Source: a virus. From it: 45,047 nucleotides of DNA. Where the stretch lies: positions 1 through 45,047 of the IMG/VR virus record IMGVR_UViG_3300045141_000138. One strand, 5' to 3'. The notes under the pieces are model-generated. The model had not been told where the DNA came from. It worked only from the letters and a program-made list of their open reading frames with translations, and made no database searches. A program made the translations under genes and the position numbers. This document shows positions 379-13,230 of the stretch, one piece after another (the stretch's first letter is position 1; the number at the start of each line of letters is the position of its first letter).

Positions 379-656
379 TGTCCATGCCTGCCGCGATAGG
401 TCAACTGCCATGCCAACAGCACTTCAAGCACACCCGGTATCTGACGCGCTTTCTCAGCCTCTTCGTGCGTTGGCCGGCGTAGCTCGGACGCGCCCAGCCA
501 TAGGCTGATCATACCACAGCCGATGCAAATAAACGTGTCGCCAGGATGCGGTCTGTCGTCTGTGTCTATGCCGGATGCTTCCTTATGCTCAGCCCGGCAC
601 CATGGGCAATAAACGGGTTTCTTTAGCTCGATCTCGTGTATTCTCACTCGATCCAT
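375..656 (-). CDS. Small zinc-ribbon protein, 93 aa
   Basis: The product carries two Cys pairs, CPWC near residue 20 and CIGC near residue 45, spaced as in a zinc ribbon, followed by a helical tail. I recognise no specific family. A longer frame begins at 722, but that would overlap the upstream gene by 79 nt. The ATG at 656 has AGAGGGG about 9 nt upstream and leaves only a 13-nt overlap, so I prefer it. The stop codon overlaps the TTG start of the RuvC-like gene, suggesting translational coupling. A nucleic-acid-binding or host-modifying role is possible but not shown. Confidence 0.65.
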   Translation of the reverse strand: MDRVRIHEIELKKPVYCPWCRAEHKEASGIDTDDRPHPGDTFICIGCGMISLWLGASELRRPTHEEAEKARQIPGVLEVLLAWQLTYRGRHGH

Positions 657-844
657 TTCAAACACCCCTCTGTTGTGCATGCTCCACGCGTTGTATTCTT
701 TTTCAAGTTCATAAGTTGCCAACGCACAAGTCCGTTACCGCAGCGCTCGCAACGGAACTCTCCCGCGAGTAGTCCAGTCTCTTGGGAGAATTTCTTGGCC
801 TTCACGAGCGCTGCTAACACGTCGCTGATATACTTGGCGTCCAT
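644..844 (-). CDS. Small two-CxxC protein, 66 aa
   Basis: This short protein has a helical N-terminus (about residues 1-25), then CERCGNGL near residue 32 and CTTEGC near residue 56, again giving four potential zinc ligands. Its ATG shares bases with the TGA of the upstream HAD gene (TGATG), so translation is probably coupled. An ATG five codons further upstream exists, but it lies inside the HAD gene and has no better ribosome-binding site. The function is unknown. It is one of three small Cys-pair proteins in this operon. Confidence 0.6.
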   Translation of the reverse strand: MDAKYISDVLAALVKAKKFSQETGLLAGEFRCERCGNGLVRWQLMNLKKNTTRGACTTEGCLKWIE

Positions 845-4059: not shown

Positions 4060-4250
4060 CAGTCAGGCACCTTCACCTTGTCGGGATTAGCATGTTGCCA
4101 TTCCGAAACAGCAGCCAAGTGTTCTGTTGCTTTGTCAATCTTGGCTTTGTTGACGCCTCTCGCTATCGCTCTATTGATCCAATAGCTTATGACTATTGGC
4201 GTCAACTTGTCTTCTGGCTTGAGGCAAAACGGGTCGGGTTTGTCTGTCAT
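4059..4250 (-). CDS. Hypothetical protein, 63 aa
   Basis: A small charged helical protein beginning MTDKPDPFCLKPEDKLTP; no family is recognised. The open frame begins at 4274, but the ATG at 4250 forms the ATGA overlap with the upstream gene, as seen repeatedly in this operon, so I take 4250. Its TGA overlaps the ATG of the poly-proline/HTH gene, suggesting the two are made together. Confidence 0.5.
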   Translation of the reverse strand: MTDKPDPFCLKPEDKLTPIVISYWINRAIARGVNKAKIDKATEHLAAVSEWQHANPDKVKVPD

Positions 4251-4462
4251 CGCTTTGCCTCTTCGTGCCGCCACACCGTCCTGTCAAGGTGTTCTATGCG
4301 TATTGCGTCAACGTATCGTATACGCAACACGCATACACCGTCTACGTTTACCCACACCTTGCCGTCAACACCAGCCATGAGTTCGATTGTCTTGGCTTCG
4401 AGATAGTCAGTCAACACACCGGTATCCCGATTGACTTCCAGGGCTTCCCGAACGTTCTTCAT
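4247..4462 (-). CDS. Hypothetical protein, paralogue of the next gene, 71 aa
   Basis: No named family. Residues about 28-58 (IELMAGVDGKVWVNVDGV onward) line up without gaps to residues about 33-63 of the adjacent gene (CELVTAAGGVVHINVDGV onward), sharing the NVDGV core and the following beta stretch. The two genes are therefore likely a tandem duplication. The start overlaps the upstream stop (ATGA) and the stop overlaps the next start (ATGA). It is probably a small beta domain; the role is unknown. Confidence 0.55.
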   Translation of the reverse strand: MKNVREALEVNRDTGVLTDYLEAKTIELMAGVDGKVWVNVDGVCVLRIRYVDAIRIEHLDRTVWRHEEAKR

Positions 4463-4695
4463 GCGTCGTACAACGTGAAGCGGCCTTCGGCTTCGGCCAT
4501 GGTTGCGGTCACGGTGGTTGCCGCGCAGTTTTGTATGCTGAGCGCCAGCACGCCGTCAACATTGATATGCACGACACCACCCGCTGCCGTAACGAGTTCG
4601 CATGTCGCTGCTGTCTGTAGCTGCGTCGCCGCGCCTTCCATTGTGTTCTGCGTGCGATCAACTACTTCAGCCATTGTGTCTGCGATTATTCCCAT
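4459..4695 (-). CDS. Hypothetical protein, paralogue of the previous entry, 78 aa
   Basis: The N-terminal 25 residues are a helix (IADTMAEVVDRTQNTMEGAA). The rest contains the same NVDGV-centred beta segment as the adjacent gene. The ATG has GGAG about 9 nt upstream in the sequence GGAGAACACGTTATG, a start region similar to others in this block. It is the first gene of the run 4695 to 1, downstream of a noncoding 160-nt stretch with a hairpin. Confidence 0.55.
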   Translation of the reverse strand: MGIIADTMAEVVDRTQNTMEGAATQLQTAATCELVTAAGGVVHINVDGVLALSIQNCAATTVTATMAEAEGRFTLYDA

Positions 4696-4727: not shown

Positions 4728-4758
4728 AGCCGAGAGGCAGATTGGCTACCTCTCGGCT
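4728..4758. terminator. Hairpin, possible terminator or attenuator
   Basis: A perfect 10-bp stem (AGCCGAGAGG / CCTCTCGGCT) with an 11-nt loop lies in the leader of the minus-strand run that begins at 4695. On the plus strand it is followed by CTTTT; on the minus strand only by TT. Since the flanking genes are minus, it may act as an attenuator there, or end stray plus-strand transcription. Confidence 0.55.
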
Positions 4759-8143: not shown

Positions 8144-8194
8144 CGCGTTTCGCCTATGGTTGGATATCCCCTAGCCAGCCATAGGCGAAACGCG
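8144..8194. repeat. 16-bp perfect inverted repeat
   Basis: Arms CGCGTTTCGCCTATGG (8144-8159) and its exact complement (8179-8194) flank a 19-nt centre. It follows the terminator-like hairpin downstream of the VWA gene, so in minus-strand RNA it would form a second long hairpin. The rest of the 7762-8231 gap holds no convincing gene. Confidence 0.7.
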
Positions 8195-8218
8195 TAGGGC
8201 GGCTTCGCAGCCGCCCTA
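8195..8218 (-). terminator. GC-rich hairpin after the VWA gene
   Basis: In minus-strand RNA, a 10-bp stem (TAGGGCGGCT / AGCCGCCCTA) closes on a GCGA tetraloop, 13 nt after the TAG of the VWA gene. There is no U-tract, so it may be a processing or stability hairpin rather than a classical terminator. Confidence 0.55.
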
Positions 8219-8231
8219 GCGTCGATTTCAC

Positions 8232-9425
8232 CTAGCTAGTGTAAAGACAAAGCTTTTCACCGAATGGTGGTCTAAGCCGCTCTGTAGCTGGCAATGTGTC
8301 TGTTATTGCCCAAAGAACCGGTATTTCCGGGTCGTCGCCAAAGCTTGTCGTTTGACCATCCGTCAAAAACACAATTGCCGCATAGTTGTCGTCACTATCA
8401 ATGACATGTTGCATAACAGCGCGGAAATTGGTTCCGCCTCCCGTACCATCGTGAAACTGTATCGTTTCGCCGGCTTCATAGTGGTCAATCGCCTTGACCG
8501 CAGTATCTGTATAGATAACGTCAATTGCATCGCACGCGCCATCGTCTAGCGCGCTCTGAGCTTCAACAAGCGCTTGCCTTACCTTGGCGCTATCCATTGA
8601 CCCGGATACGTCAATCATGAACGCGACAATTGACGGTCGAATTACCTTTTGACCCGGTAACACGTGGCCACGCGTCAAACCACGCCTAGACAATTTCGCC
8701 CAAGATGATTGGCGCGAGCCTAGTACGTCAATGAAGGCTCTTAACGGTTGCCGCCAATCAATCACGTTATGCATTGAACGCGTGGCGCTAATCGCGACAA
8801 GGCTTGTGGGAATATGACCGCCAGCCATAAGCCCGGCTTTACGGGCAGCGCCAAGGGCTTGCGAAACTGTCTGTTCAATGCGTTCATTTAGTTCGCCCAA
8901 TTGTTCGCCACTCATAGGTGAGCCGTCATCGTTTGACGGCTCAATCATATTTCCAGATTGTGGCGTATGCCGTGGCGTATTGCCTTGCTTTTTGTCTTGC
9001 TCGTTTTCGCGTGAAATCACGTTATAAACTTGTTCGGCAGACAAGCCATCAAAACGCGTATCTAGCAAAAGACCATCTGGCAACGTGAAACCAGCTTTCA
9101 CTAGATCAAGGTTTAATTCGTAGTCAGCAGCCATATTCCAAGTGTTTTGATCTCTATCGCCCATGCGCGGGAAGTGTCTTAGCGCCACGTGCGAAATTTC
9201 ATGGGCGATTACTCCCATGCACTCACTTTCAGTGAGAGCCATCACATATGCGGGCGAATAGTAGATTGAGCGGCTATCTGTGGCCATTGTCTCAATTTCA
9301 TCGCTGGCTACCATTGGCATAGTCAGGCCAATTGTTCCCCAGAATTGCGCGTTTCGATCTTCGAATAGCTTTCGCCTTGCGCGCGCAACGCGTTTTGACG
9401 CGTCTTTGATATGTTCCCAAATCAT
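8232..9425 (-). CDS. Metallopeptidase-VWA fusion protein (DUF2201-like)
   Basis: The 397-residue product has two domains. The first is a zinc-metallopeptidase-like domain with HEISH at residues 75-79 and a downstream NMAADYELN segment, as in the DUF2201 putative metallopeptidases. The second is a VWA domain with the metal-ion-dependent adhesion motif DVSGS near residue 270 and FLTDGQT near 355. The linker (about 155-195) is Gln/Asn/Gly-rich. Such proteins pair with MoxR AAA+ ATPases, which lies directly upstream here, and probably act together in remodelling a protein complex. The ATG has GGAG 9 nt upstream. An AUUGG-loop hairpin lies 18 nt before the start. Confidence 0.85.
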   Translation of the reverse strand: MIWEHIKDASKRVARARRKLFEDRNAQFWGTIGLTMPMVASDEIETMATDSRSIYYSPAYVMALTESECMGVIAHEISHVALRHFPRMGDRDQNTWNMAADYELNLDLVKAGFTLPDGLLLDTRFDGLSAEQVYNVISRENEQDKKQGNTPRHTPQSGNMIEPSNDDGSPMSGEQLGELNERIEQTVSQALGAARKAGLMAGGHIPTSLVAISATRSMHNVIDWRQPLRAFIDVLGSRQSSWAKLSRRGLTRGHVLPGQKVIRPSIVAFMIDVSGSMDSAKVRQALVEAQSALDDGACDAIDVIYTDTAVKAIDHYEAGETIQFHDGTGGGTNFRAVMQHVIDSDDNYAAIVFLTDGQTTSFGDDPEIPVLWAITDTLPATERLRPPFGEKLCLYTS

Positions 9426-9443
9426 AGCTTTTCGCTCCGTTAT

Positions 9444-9462
9444 CTAGCCGCCAATCGGCTAG
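9444..9462 (-). promoter_or_regulatory. AUUGG-loop hairpin before the VWA gene
   Basis: In minus-strand RNA a 7-bp stem (CUAGCCG / CGGCUAG) closes the loop AUUGG. Its 3' end is 18 nt from the ATG at 9425, just before the ribosome-binding site. Matching hairpins precede the two other genes of the module with different stem bases, so pairing and loop are kept. Confidence 0.75.
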
Positions 9463-9466
9463 GCGA

Positions 9467-9496
9467 TTGACCACCATCGTTTCCAATGGTGGTCAA
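9467..9496. terminator. 11-bp inverted repeat between MoxR and VWA genes
   Basis: Arms TTGACCACCAT (9467-9477) and ATGGTGGTCAA (9486-9496) are perfectly complementary around an 8-nt loop, 14 nt past the MoxR stop. There is no U-tract. It may attenuate transcription or protect the 3' end. Confidence 0.6.
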
Positions 9497-9509
9497 CTAG
9501 CCTAAGCGA

Positions 9510-10580
9510 CTAAGCCGCTACGTCGTTTCCGCTACGGGCAATCGCGTAGGCAACATGTTCGGCAGTCTCGCGAAAGCTATCGTCTTTCGCAATCGCCATT
9601 GACCAGAATGCGGCCTGATAAAGCGCTTCGTTGCGCGCAATGTATCGGCCGATCTTCGTGATATTCGCATGCGTCAATCGCGACACTAATCCGACAATTA
9701 CCGCATAATTCACGGACGGCTCGCGGGCGATTGGCGCGCCACTCGGGTCCGCCAAAATCAAATCGACGTTAGGCGCGAGCCGATACGTTGCAAGAAAGTT
9801 CATCAAATCATTGGCGCTATCCTCGCCAATGTTTTGCGCGAATAGGCGTCGCAATTGCGTATCATTCGGCACTGTCGTCATTTTTAGATATTTGTCGCAA
9901 CGCGCGAGTGACCTAGGCGTCACAAAAGCAATTGCGTCATTTCCGCTCGCTGTCGGATATCGATGCAATGCATCCGCGCCCATACCTTGCCTATTGGCGT
10001 TTTGAATGTACGCAATTAACACGGGCGAAATGCCATTGGCAATTGCCCAATCTATCCAAGCTTGAACGTCTATCGCAATTTCCATGATTGCGAGCCGATT
10101 TGACATGGCGCGCGATATTTTCTGGCTTGCCGCTTTATCGGCCGCACGATTGCCCGTCGCGACTATGTGCGCATTGTCGGGCAATGTGTATCCTGGCAAT
10201 GCGCGATCAAGGATTAGCTGGTTTAGCGCCGCTTGCACTGCAATTGACGCGTCGGTTAGTTCATCAAGGAATAGAATGATCACGTCGTATTGTGCGGCCG
10301 TAACGCTATCCGGCAACCATTCCTGTAGACACGCGATAACGCGACGCGTTGTGATATCGGGCATTGGAATTGCTAAATCTGTCGGTTCCATCTGGCTTGC
10401 GCGTTTGTCGATTACCAAAACGCGTTTTGAACCATATGCGCTTGAACGGAGTTTATCGGCGCATTGCCGCACAATGTCAGTTTTTCCGACGCCTACGGGT
10501 CCAATGATCAATGTCGCGATTGACAGTTCAACATTGACCATCAAGTCCGATGACGCTTGCGCGAGAGTGATTGCAGACAT
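9510..10580 (-). CDS. MoxR-type AAA+ ATPase
   Basis: The 356-residue product is a single AAA+ domain of the MoxR/CobS kind: Walker A GPVGVGKT at residues 27-34, Walker B LFLDE near 103-107, sensor 1 ATGN at 141-144, and the arginine region SNRLAIMEI near 160-168. The C-terminal 150 residues form a helical lid. MoxR ATPases work as chaperone-like motors with VWA partners, and a VWA gene follows. The ATG follows GTAGGGAAACGAAA, with an AUUGG hairpin 19 nt upstream. The substrate in phage infection is unknown. Confidence 0.85.
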   Translation of the reverse strand: MSAITLAQASSDLMVNVELSIATLIIGPVGVGKTDIVRQCADKLRSSAYGSKRVLVIDKRASQMEPTDLAIPMPDITTRRVIACLQEWLPDSVTAAQYDVIILFLDELTDASIAVQAALNQLILDRALPGYTLPDNAHIVATGNRAADKAASQKISRAMSNRLAIMEIAIDVQAWIDWAIANGISPVLIAYIQNANRQGMGADALHRYPTASGNDAIAFVTPRSLARCDKYLKMTTVPNDTQLRRLFAQNIGEDSANDLMNFLATYRLAPNVDLILADPSGAPIAREPSVNYAVIVGLVSRLTHANITKIGRYIARNEALYQAAFWSMAIAKDDSFRETAEHVAYAIARSGNDVAA

Positions 10581-10599
10581 TTTCGTTTCCCTACGTTGT

Positions 10600-10614
10600 G
10601 CCCGCCAATCGGGC
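10600..10614 (-). promoter_or_regulatory. AUUGG-loop hairpin before the MoxR gene
   Basis: In minus-strand RNA the stem GCCCG / CGGGC closes the loop AUUGG; its 3' end lies 19 nt before the ATG at 10580. The core CGAUUGGCG is shared with the hairpins at 9444-9462 and 11618-11638 while the outer pairs differ and still match. Confidence 0.75.
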
Positions 10615-10630
10615 TCAGAAACCGCACCAT

Positions 10631-10678
10631 GCGTTTTCTGCCGATAGGGTGGACAACCACCCCATGGGGAGAAAACGC
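10631..10678 (-). promoter_or_regulatory. Nested inverted repeats in the MoxR leader
   Basis: GCGTTTTCT (10631-10639) pairs with AGAAAACGC (10670-10678), enclosing GGGTGG-acaa-CCACCC (10647-10662). On the minus strand the outer 5' arm is the T-rich tail of the terminator at 10677-10703. A downstream segment can therefore compete for that tail, as in attenuation or anti-termination. Confidence 0.5.
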
Positions 10679-10703
10679 GAGCCTAGGGCTGTCCTAGGCT
10701 CGC
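10677..10703 (-). terminator. Terminator after the 11598 gene
   Basis: An 11-bp perfect stem (GCGAGCCTAGG / CCTAGGCTCGC) with a 5-nt loop, followed on the minus strand by GTTTTCT, lies 7 nt after the gene stop. It contains two facing copies of GAGCCTA, the heptamer also repeated in the noncoding region at 11.8-12.4 kb. Confidence 0.75.
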
Positions 10704-10710
10704 GCGTAGC

Positions 10711-11598
10711 CTATGCCATAAAATCCGACACTGCGCTCACAATCTCTTTTGCGGCCGCAATTGTGTTGCGCCGCGCAATGTCATCGGCTCGCAAGTCCTC
10801 GGCTTCATACGTTGTCAACGCCGTCATGTCGCGCACTAGCTGGTCAATGCGCGTATCACCCGTAAAATTCAGACCAGGGAGAATGCTCAGCAAGTCGCGC
10901 ACGTTTGAAACCAGCGTATCGCGAAACGTGCCACGGTCTTTGCCCGACGCATTCGGTTGGAATGCGTCGAGCTTTTCGACCATGGTGCTAACCGTATCGT
11001 GAACGCGTTCAAATACATCGATAACGGCTGCGTTTGCCCGTTCCGTGACGGTAGCTTCAATCTCTGCCCGAACGCGCGCGATTGCGCTTTGCCCAATGTC
11101 AACGCGAAAATCAGCAGCCGTGGGGATTGGCATAACGCGATTGCGCCAAGAAAACTTGGCGCTAATACGCGTTACTTGCGGATAATCCGCATGATTAAAC
11201 AGTTTGCCAAGTGCCACATATTCGCGGGAAGCATCTTCGCGCATAGCAGGATACGTAGCCACAAATCTGTCAACCAACGGATAGAACCTTGCCTCATATG
11301 CTTCCATCCCAGCCATATACGCAGCATGATTGGCAACGCTGAGAATGCGCGCGCCATTGTCAAACCATGGCGACGTTAGCCGCATGTGGAACAATCTGGC
11401 TTGCATAACCAGATTGTTTATTTCCGACAGGATATCGGAAACGACAAGCTTTTTGCTGACATGCGCAAGCTTGCCGCTTGCGCGCTTTTCGTCTGTCAAG
11501 TCCGCTGACGCGGCCTTGTCAATCTTTCTGGCTGTCCATTGTGACACGCTGAAATCTACCAGCATGGCTACGCTAGCAATGTGAGCCGTTCCGTTCAT
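10711..11598 (-). CDS. Phage helical protein, partner of the MoxR/VWA module, 295 aa
   Basis: The N-terminus has SVSQWTARKIDKAASADL. Further on come MRLTSPWFDNGARIL and MEAYEARFYPLVDRF, a pattern I recall from uncharacterised phage proteins that sit beside MoxR and VWA genes. The chain is largely helical, with no catalytic motif seen. The open frame runs to 11769, but the ATG at 11598 has GGGGA 7 nt upstream and places the AUUGG hairpin 19 nt away, as for the two other module genes; this decides the start. It is the first gene of the module and ends at a strong terminator. The function is unknown; a substrate adaptor is one possibility. Confidence 0.7.
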   Translation of the reverse strand: MNGTAHIASVAMLVDFSVSQWTARKIDKAASADLTDEKRASGKLAHVSKKLVVSDILSEINNLVMQARLFHMRLTSPWFDNGARILSVANHAAYMAGMEAYEARFYPLVDRFVATYPAMREDASREYVALGKLFNHADYPQVTRISAKFSWRNRVMPIPTAADFRVDIGQSAIARVRAEIEATVTERANAAVIDVFERVHDTVSTMVEKLDAFQPNASGKDRGTFRDTLVSNVRDLLSILPGLNFTGDTRIDQLVRDMTALTTYEAEDLRADDIARRNTIAAAKEIVSAVSDFMA

Positions 11599-11617
11599 CG
11601 TCATTTCCCCATAGCTT

Positions 11618-11638
11618 GCCCGTCGCCAATCGACAGGC
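11618..11638 (-). promoter_or_regulatory. AUUGG-loop hairpin before the 11598 gene
   Basis: In minus-strand RNA GCCUGUCG pairs with CGACGGGC (seven Watson-Crick pairs and one U-G wobble) around the loop AUUGG. Its 3' end lies 19 nt before the ATG at 11598. Third member of the set at 9444-9462 and 10600-10614. Confidence 0.75.
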
Positions 11639-11649
11639 GAGACACATAC

Positions 11650-11678
11650 ATAATCGCTTGTGTGCGAGATTGCAACAA
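11650..11678 (-). promoter_or_regulatory. Possible promoter of the MoxR/VWA module
   Basis: On the minus strand TTGTTG (11673-11678), a 17-nt spacer and GATTAT (11650-11655) give a moderate sigma70 match. Transcription would start only a few bases before the AUUGG hairpin. Confidence 0.35.
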
Positions 11679-11794
11679 TCAAAACACGGAAAAAGAACAC
11701 GCGCGAATTGCGTGCGCGTGCAACAAAAATATGGTCGAAATATGGCAAGAAACAAGCGGAAATGAACAATTTTGTTAAGTATTAGGAAAAGTCG

Positions 11795-12667
11795 CTTTCA
11801 AATTGAAAGTGAGCCTATCAACGTACTTCTCAATTCTGAGAGTTTGGATCGATCCAAAAACACTATACTTAGACAACAAAAAGCCATAATCGCTAGAAAC
11901 GGCTGAAATCAGCCATTCTTACAAATATGTTAAAATCGTAAACATAGTGTAAAAAGCTTAGCTGCGGTAGTGATTTGGTCCATTTTTTCAACGCAGGGAT
12001 AGCCTAAAAATAGGCTCACTCTATAGGCTGACCGGATTGGAGAATAGAAAAAAATTGGACTTGCATACAACCACCGCTGAACTAGGGCTTTATTCAGTAA
12101 TACCGCTTTACAGAAAAGCGAGCCTAAGAGAAATACAGTAGAAAATTGAGCCTAACTCTAAAAAAACAACGACAAGGGAGTAAACAGCTTTAGCTGTGTT
12201 TTTATAGAGTTATGGCTGTAGAAAAAGGCCGAACCGGCATAGGCGAAAAGAGGCATAGTCAACCATGGTGGTCTCGCGCGAGCCGAGCCAATGCCAATCG
12301 CGAGCCGTCCTAAACGCGCTCTGAGATTACAGGCCAAAGATCAATGTGAGCCTAGCTAACATCAGAAATCACTAATTTTGCTAGTGAGCGCGGTTGACAA
12401 GATTGTCAGAATATGCATAGGGGAAATATGGGCTTTATGGGCATTTAACACTTTACGTCGCGGAAAGATTTTACCCGTAAAGGCTATTTACAAAAATGTA
12501 ATTGCTTGCATTTAGCATTCGTGGGAATGGCTTTACACTTTTGCAGTAATTACAGGAATGACATTTCATGCGCTTTACGCAATAAACGCGTTGCGTGTAA
12601 CATGTTGCAAGCGACTTGTCGCGCGTAACGCGTTTTGCACATGTGTTAAAGTACAGTTTAGTAAACT
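11795..12667. promoter_or_regulatory. Seven palindromes in the noncoding region
   Basis: Perfect inverted repeats: CTTTCAA-A-TTGAAAG at 11795-11809; TTTGGATCGATCCAAA at 11843-11858; GGCTGA-aa-TCAGCC at 11901-11914; AGCCTA-aaaa-TAGGCT at 12001-12016; ACAGCT-tt-AGCTGT at 12184-12197; TGACAA-ga-TTGTCA at 12395-12408 (overlapping a TTGACA); AGTTTA-g-TAAACT at 12655-12667. They differ from each other, so several proteins or a structural role are more likely than one operator family. Confidence 0.6.
11811..12354. repeat. Five copies of heptamer GAGCCTA
   Basis: Copies at 11811-11817, 12011-12017 (reverse), 12120-12126, 12148-12154 and 12348-12354. Further copies flank the loop of the terminator at 10677-10703, and one is at 19260-19266 before the capsid gene. 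All are noncoding, which suggests a bound site rather than chance. Confidence 0.5.
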
Positions 12668-12797
12668 ATTCTCTTGACAAAGATGTAAGCAAGTACAATT
12701 AAGTAAAAGCCAGAACAAATTTGGAAAATTATTTCATCTGACGGAGGGTGGGGGGCCTTTACAATTCCGCTTTGGTGGCCGCTCGCTTGCGAGGAGG

Positions 12798-12877
12798 TTT
12801 GTAAATTCCGCCCCAAAAATCCGCCAAGTAAATTACGTATTTATGTAAAGAGCATTTTTGTAAATTCCCGCCCAAAA
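12798..12877. repeat. 21-nt near-repeat TTTGTAAATTCC(C/G)GCCC within TGTAAA-rich DNA
   Basis: Two near-identical 21-mers start at 12798 and 12857, 59 bp apart. A third partial copy is near 12757. The surrounding 12480-12970 holds a dozen TGTAAA, TTTACA or AGTAAA motifs, an iteron-like density. Confidence 0.5.
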
Positions 12878-12919
12878 TTACGCGCAGCATTTTTTGTATT
12901 GATGTACATATTTGTAAAG

Positions 12920-13221
12920 CGCTCTCCAGGGGCTCAATAGCAGGATCAGAGCCGAGAGTGTTGTAAACGCATATTGGCCGTGATTGGCTTGACGAGCTAT
13001 AACCTCATACCGTGGTCAAACGCCGCTGCGGGCCTATGGCTTGCGCCCAAGTCGCGAATGTGCTATTGGCTCAAGCCGCGAGCCAATAGGGGCTCAGAGC
13101 CTGACCGGCGCTCAGCCCGGTCGAAGACAGGGAGCCGATAGGTTCCGGCCTTAAGCTGGAATTCAGAACCGCACACTGAAATCTGCCAAACTTGACAGGG
13201 AGCCGCTTTGGCTCCCTTTTT
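12920..13221 (+). ncRNA. Candidate structured RNA ending in a terminator
   Basis: In order on the plus strand: CTCTC/GAGAG with GGCTC/GAGCC at 12922-12958; a perfect 10-bp hairpin CTATTGGCTC / GAGCCAATAG at 13063-13089; GACCGG / CCGGTC at 13103-13122; and the terminator GGGAGCC-gcttt-GGCTCCC-TTTTT at 13198-13221. No plus-strand gene precedes the terminator, so it would end a noncoding transcript. TTGACA at 12674 is a possible upstream -35 box, but its spacing to TACAAT is short. Alternatively the hairpins serve the convergent terS transcript. Confidence 0.4.
13198..13221 (+). terminator. Rho-independent terminator, plus orientation
   Basis: A 7-bp stem GGGAGCC / GGCTCCC with a 5-nt loop is followed on the plus strand by five Ts. 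On the minus strand it follows the terS stop by 9 nt and is preceded by AAAAA, but has no U-tract after it. It probably works best on the plus strand and may also close the terS transcript. Confidence 0.75.
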
Positions 13222-13230
13222 GTTAACGCG

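Follow-up and report, generated by a model that had tools for sequence, protein, structure and literature searches.

Each of the three genes of a phage module, encoding a DUF3150-like protein, a MoxR-type AAA ATPase and a VWA-like domain protein, is preceded by a short hairpin (hairpin B). Judged from sequence comparison, hairpin B is a conserved cis-acting RNA element with compensatory stem changes across related phages. Between the genes, its 5' strand and part of its loop can pair instead with a strand at or close to the point where the preceding gene stops. The two resulting helices, structures A and B, are mutually exclusive and both conserved, as in a two-state switch, and the location of the switching strand, which a ribosome on the upstream stop codon would cover, fits translational coupling.

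Hairpin B in the window and in related phages

The window, that is, the whole stretch of DNA analyzed (45,047 nucleotides), is a 45-kb virus record in IMG/VR. Its module comprises three genes:

10711..11598, minus strand: first gene of the module, DUF3150-like, ~295 aa, without a Pfam or PHROG match
9510..10580, minus strand: MoxR-type AAA ATPase, 356 aa (AAA_5; phrog_1297)
8232..9425, minus strand: DUF2201_N putative metallopeptidase and VWA-like domain protein, 397 aa, assigned by domain search

The predicted fold of the first-gene product was mostly helical (pLDDT 89); its fold matches were viral DUF3150-like proteins only, and the fold search gave no PDB match. The gene is a member of a large phage family without a named function, with at least 578 matching stretches in IMG/VR. 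A chaperone and cochaperone role in virion assembly has been proposed for phage MoxR-VWA modules (PMC7824862). No close named phage was found in the searched collection, where MoxR and portal matches were below 60% identity, and a search of bacterial genomes by MoxR returned no prophage relatives.

Several other features surround the module. Two strong hairpins stand right after the VWA stop codon (8151-8218) and possibly mark the end of the module transcript; in locus L190, four strong hairpins rich in GGCTGGCTGG are clustered behind the VWA gene (4115-4457). In the 1.6-kb noncoding region ahead of the first gene (11605-13230), which is of similar length in several relatives, a 12-nt repeat built around GAGCCTA occurs four times, and an imperfect tandem repeat of 57 nt is also present.

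A preliminary description placed three hairpins 18, 19 and 19 nt before the module starts, and all three are present on the minus strand:

9444..9462, minus strand: hairpin B of the VWA gene, CUAGCCG(AUUGG)CGGCUAG, 18 nt before the ATG at 9425
10600..10614, minus strand: hairpin B of the MoxR gene, GCCCG(AUUGG)CGGGC, 19 nt before the ATG at 10580
11618..11638, minus strand: hairpin B of the first gene, GCCUGUCG(AUUGG)CGACGGGC (DNA: GCCTGTCG(ATTGG)CGACGGGC), 19 nt before the ATG at 11598

A second in-frame ATG of the first gene, at 11604, would put its hairpin 13 nt before the start; position 11598 was taken as the start because spacing to GGGGAA favours it. When each of the upstream regions was shuffled, such a hairpin arose at a frequency of 0.000-0.002. 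The nonamer CGATTGGCG occurred seven times in the window against 0.9 expected. With this core so common, the case therefore rests on the whole hairpin and its position.

IMG/VR contigs containing all three module genes or parts of them were G001 (48 kb; loci L017-L020 and L037), L021/L034, L028, L033, L038, L039, L027 and L029. The sample amounts to ~8 lineages, all metagenomic and several of them contig fragments. Both ends of the G001 contig (L008/L017 and L019) lie inside the VWA gene, which fits a circularly permuted genome.

Hairpin B was found in seven further phages carrying module genes. It preceded the first gene, MoxR and VWA in the window, G001 and L028; MoxR and VWA in L034 and L039; the first gene and MoxR in L038; MoxR in L033; and the first gene in L027. 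It was absent before the first gene and VWA of L033, the first gene of L034, VWA of L038 and the first gene of L039, and these five module starts indicate that it is not essential for these genes. It was also absent before the partial first gene of L029. Defined as a loop of A[C/U]U1-3GG closed by at least five pairs and lying 12-32 nt before a start, hairpin B occurred at 16/22 module starts, compared with 0.014 expected from dinucleotide shuffles; the MoxR hairpin of L034, with one stem bulge, raises the count to 17/22. Outside the module starts, 165 ORFs of the clade contigs yielded one single match, inside a portal gene.

The loop precedes the start codon by 17-23 nt (29 nt in one copy) and is constrained to the consensus A(C/U)U1-3GG, mostly with one type per phage: AUUGG in the window, G001 and L039; AUUUGG in L028 and L033; AUGG in L034; and ACUGG in L027, while L038 mixes AUGG and AUUGG. 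The type was uniform in the window, L020 and L028 (3/3 each), L034 (2/2) and L039 (2/2). The loop and inner pairs had been called invariant, which is correct inside the window but does not extend to relatives, where AUUGG, AUUUGG, AUGG and ACUGG loops occur with other inner pairs.

Covariation had been claimed from the three copies of one genome, which are insufficient by themselves; the cross-phage comparison supplied it. In an alignment of 17 hairpin B sequences, all eight stem pairs showed changes on both sides. Shuffles served as the control, although the sequences had been picked because they pair: cells changed on both sides numbered 45, against 14.7 +/- 3.0 when shuffled (0/500 reached 45) and at most 13 in slid controls. 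By our own count, B stems contained five G.U and no A.C on the mRNA strand. Selection for RNA structure, as proposed earlier, with a set loop at a set distance from the start codon, is strongly supported by the shuffle statistics and the compensatory stem changes. Relatives without the hairpins, which had been named as evidence to the contrary, were confined to distant phages (below ~40% identity) and to 5/22 starts of the close clade, and the module families are widespread without the hairpin.

Covariance models, the search proposed in the preliminary description, returned their own members, the VWA-gene hairpin at 9444..9462 being the best match of model R2, and gave no further copy at any module gene. 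Used as an IMG/VR probe, the motif TGGTCAATCGCCTAG recovered known members and unrelated matches only. No Rfam covariance match reached the gathering score in the window and six relatives, and positions 9300-11800 gave a single sub-threshold match, which was unrelated. Nothing was found in the literature on such an arrangement.

A sigma-54-like motif, TGGCAT-N5-(A/T)TGC(A/T), was seen ~80-160 nt upstream of the first gene at corresponding positions in seven loci: L027, L028, L033, L034, L038, L039, and L029. It was not evident in the window. A stricter pattern run over whole contigs gave one site each in four of them, two in that of L027 and none in that of L021, and the reversed control gave no sites in whole contigs. 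In L027 a second sigma-54-like site (645-661, plus strand) stands in opposite orientation in the noncoding region.

Exclusive pairings between the genes

Here S2 and S3 denote the 5' and 3' strands of hairpin B; structure B is S2:S3 and structure A is S1:S2. Strand S1 lies upstream, outside a long inner hairpin preceding B, and is complementary to S2 and the AUU of the B loop. Since it pairs with S2, S1 resembles S3. This alternative pairing with the last part of the preceding gene, like the complementary-loop hairpin treated below, was not part of the preliminary description. Before the VWA gene of the window the element consists of the following:

9444..9511, minus strand: complete intercistronic two-state element, model R1, 72.1 bits
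9500..9511, minus strand: strand S1, AGUCGCUUAGGC, overlapping the MoxR stop codon (9510-9512) and pairing with S2 and the loop AUU
9467..9496, minus strand: inner hairpin UUGACCACCAU...AUGGUGGUCAA, between S1 and S2 in both states

Structures A and B conflict over S2. At the VWA gene of the window, S1 AGUCGCUUAGGC faces S2 plus loop GCCUAGCCGAUU; the corresponding strands at the VWA gene of L028 are S1 GGUCUGACUUG and S2 plus loop CAAGUCAGAUU, with CUGACUU as S3. Energies predicted for 9444..9511 were -36.2 kcal/mol for A and -33.4 kcal/mol for B, and thermodynamic prediction made A the more stable by 1.6-10 kcal/mol in 11/11 copies.

Structure A was possible in 11/12 intercistronic copies, the sole exception, without a clear S1, being the MoxR hairpin of the window (10600..10614). 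The leader of that gene contains further competing helices (10615-10700), in which AGAAAACGC can pair with GCGUUUUCU upstream or GCGGUUUCU downstream. First-gene copies of B had upstream complementarity no higher than chance. On a nine-copy alignment (A7), 94% of cells were paired in structure A, with 13 pairs changed on both sides (5.6 when shuffled; 0/500), and 97% of cells were paired in structure B, with both-side changes in 6/7 pairs. With S1 and S2 registered by hand and shuffles as the control, 106/116 possible S1:S2 pairs were formed, a number reached by 0/2000 re-dealings of S2 among the phages. S1 covaries with S2 and the loop, which argues that the upstream pairing is selected; an excess of G.U over A.C (19 vs 2) points to the mRNA strand as the selected one. 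Using a covariance model of structure A, no copy was found in 99 loci of distant MoxR/DUF3150 phages except G001 itself.

In 9/11 copies S1 begins 1-6 nt past the point at which the upstream stop codon starts. In the predictions, structures A and B each stop short of the Shine-Dalgarno sequence. Neither visibly hides the ribosome binding site of the downstream gene, which leaves no role for simple unmasking.

Translational coupling by intercistronic RNA structure is known from MS2 coat-lysis and rpmI-rplT (reviewed in PMC12548453). The phage element is similar in that upstream translation would alter an RNA structure controlling the downstream gene. In textbook coupling, however, the downstream ribosome binding site is covered, whereas here it is visibly covered in neither state, and the competing fold is a defined hairpin whose loop is conserved. 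The erm leaders are ribosome-driven attenuators in which ribosome position decides whether strands pair 1:2 or 2:3. The same choice, set by the site of the ribosome, would be made in the phage element, but by a ribosome terminating on a full structural gene rather than one stalled on a leader peptide, and the part set free is not a Shine-Dalgarno sequence.

Hairpin C, whose loop is complementary to AUUGG

The preliminary description saw no fourth copy of the hairpin. This needs a small correction, since positions 4728-4758 form a hairpin of 13 bp whose loop reads AUUGG on the plus strand and CCAAU in gene sense. This hairpin (hairpin C) came from the low-scoring tail of the covariance searches, in the window (4728-4758), L019 (4049-4079) and L190 (7603-7633). 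In the window it is found with a small conserved gene:

4728..4758, minus strand: hairpin C, AGCCGAGAGGUAG(CCAAU)CUGCCUCUCGGCU, 32 nt before the ATG at 4695
4459..4695, minus strand: conserved gene of 78 aa downstream of hairpin C, without assigned function

All three copies have 13 pairs and the gene-sense loop CCAAU, the exact complement of AUUGG. The distance to the small gene, which sits ~3.5 kb downstream of the VWA gene, is 32 nt in the window, 29 nt in L019, and 18 nt in L190. A search for more loci of this fourth gene added one only, L193, whose flanks are 93-95% identical to those of L190; the C stems of these two differ at several pairs, all compensated. Among the window, L190 and L193, two of which have these 93-95% identical flanks, 8/13 pairs vary and 8/8 of these are compensated. 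The constants are the loop CCAAU and one U.G pair.

Complementarity of the B and C loops was seen in the window, G001 and L039, and not in L021/L186. There the B loops are AUGG and the hairpin in the homologous place has the loop UCCC, which is not complementary to AUGG, so the match between B and C loops does not hold throughout. The minus strand of the window contains 15 strong pentaloop hairpins, giving a chance match to a given 5-nt sequence of ~15/1024, a post hoc figure. In AUUGG phages hairpin C may be a kissing partner of the B loop, which is plausible but unproven. The 1.6-kb noncoding region was considered as the site of an anti-loop partner and rejected: its CCAAU, CCAAAU and CCAU sites do not track loop type.

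RNAI/RNAII of ColE1 is a kissing-loop regulator. The phage pair is like it in having two hairpins with fully complementary loops (AUUGG/CCAAU) and drifting stems, and unlike it in that B and C would both lie in phage mRNA leaders and the complementarity is absent in one phage.

Proposed control of the module

The reading we favour, by a modest degree, is that the hairpins act in cis on the mRNA and control translation of the three-gene module through A/B switching. We infer that ribosomes drive the switching and that translation is its output, with an effect of either sign. The functional unit would be hairpin B, its loop held at the upstream boundary of the ribosome during initiation. Before the first gene B stands alone; between genes it is one of two exclusive states, of which A would be the default, with S2 and the loop paired with S1 where the preceding gene ends. 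From the size of the ribosome footprint, a ribosome on the stop codon should cover most of S1. Termination at the upstream stop would thus leave S2 free for S3, B would form and its loop would be exposed, and the state of each leader would depend on translation of the subunit encoded before it. The exposed loop would be read by a partner, either RNA (hairpin C) or protein, and translation of the downstream gene would change, up or down, coordinating three interacting proteins.

In AUUGG phages the likeliest loop partner would be hairpin C, by kissing, or a protein, the two being about equally probable. The preliminary description suggested a translational regulator or one of the module's own products as the binder; domain searches gave no RNA-binding protein candidate, most small genes of this phage being without a known domain. 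A circuit with no protein regulator, in which terminating ribosomes expose the loops and hairpin C kisses them, setting the subunit ratios of a MoxR-type machine, is a tentative extension that we think could hold but do not expect.

Among other explanations, the strongest is a protein operator only, an appreciable though clearly lesser possibility than A/B switching. B would be bound by a protein of phage or host, perhaps autogenously by one of the module products, in the manner of operators for coat proteins, gp43 or ribosomal proteins, and the upstream pairing would be incidental or fine tuning. A constrained loop on a drifting stem and mostly one loop type per phage fit one trans-acting factor. 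The coat operators of MS2 and PP7 are phage translational operators. The operator hairpin of T4 gp43 is likewise sited ahead of the ribosome binding site, and conservation in it falls on the loop (PMC3014915). Hairpin B resembles these operators as a small hairpin near the start codon with a conserved loop and variable stem; it differs in that three genes each have a copy, placed ahead of the Shine-Dalgarno sequence, and in having no known binding protein. The covariation of S1 with S2 and the loop, which speaks for selection on the upstream pairing, weighs against an operator alone, as do the missing RNA-binding candidate and the wide occurrence of the module families without the hairpin.

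Processing of the mRNA is a rather improbable explanation. Structure A would be an RNase III site, and after cleavage S2:S3 would refold, with B protecting the new 5' end of the downstream message. This would explain why S2 needs to pair both ways, and 11 copies do have long, near-continuous intercistronic stems (A of ~20-25 pairs). However, first-gene copies have B without structure A, protection of a 5' end needs no fixed loop, and S1 would not need to be at the stop codon.

It is very unlikely that the hairpins are a DNA-level signal, be it a hairpin promoter of the N4 virion RNA polymerase type, a terminator or a repeated protein-binding palindrome. N4-type phages use hairpin promoters, and the inner hairpins resemble intergenic terminators, but G.U pairs occur on the mRNA strand, the position is tied to the start codon, and neither B nor the inner hairpin is followed by a T tract. 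The N4-type promoter was rejected as a candidate: B loops are 4-6 nt against the required 3 nt, and the large proteins searched included no RNA polymerase. Chance or an artefact of sequence bias, to which the over-represented nonamer could point, has next to no probability given the 16/22 starts and the compensatory changes in all stem pairs.

We would place the element in no named family, as the defining features of each are either lacking or beyond sequence data. For a structured RNA of metagenomic phages it is well supported, with two exclusive, compensated helices that are tied to a stop codon upstream and to a start codon downstream. It is compact enough for reporter testing and gives a handle on phage MoxR-VWA modules. 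The element suggests a previously undescribed way to control the amount of each module protein and, if A/B switching is true, would show how a phage can adjust the ratio of interacting proteins that are encoded on one message.
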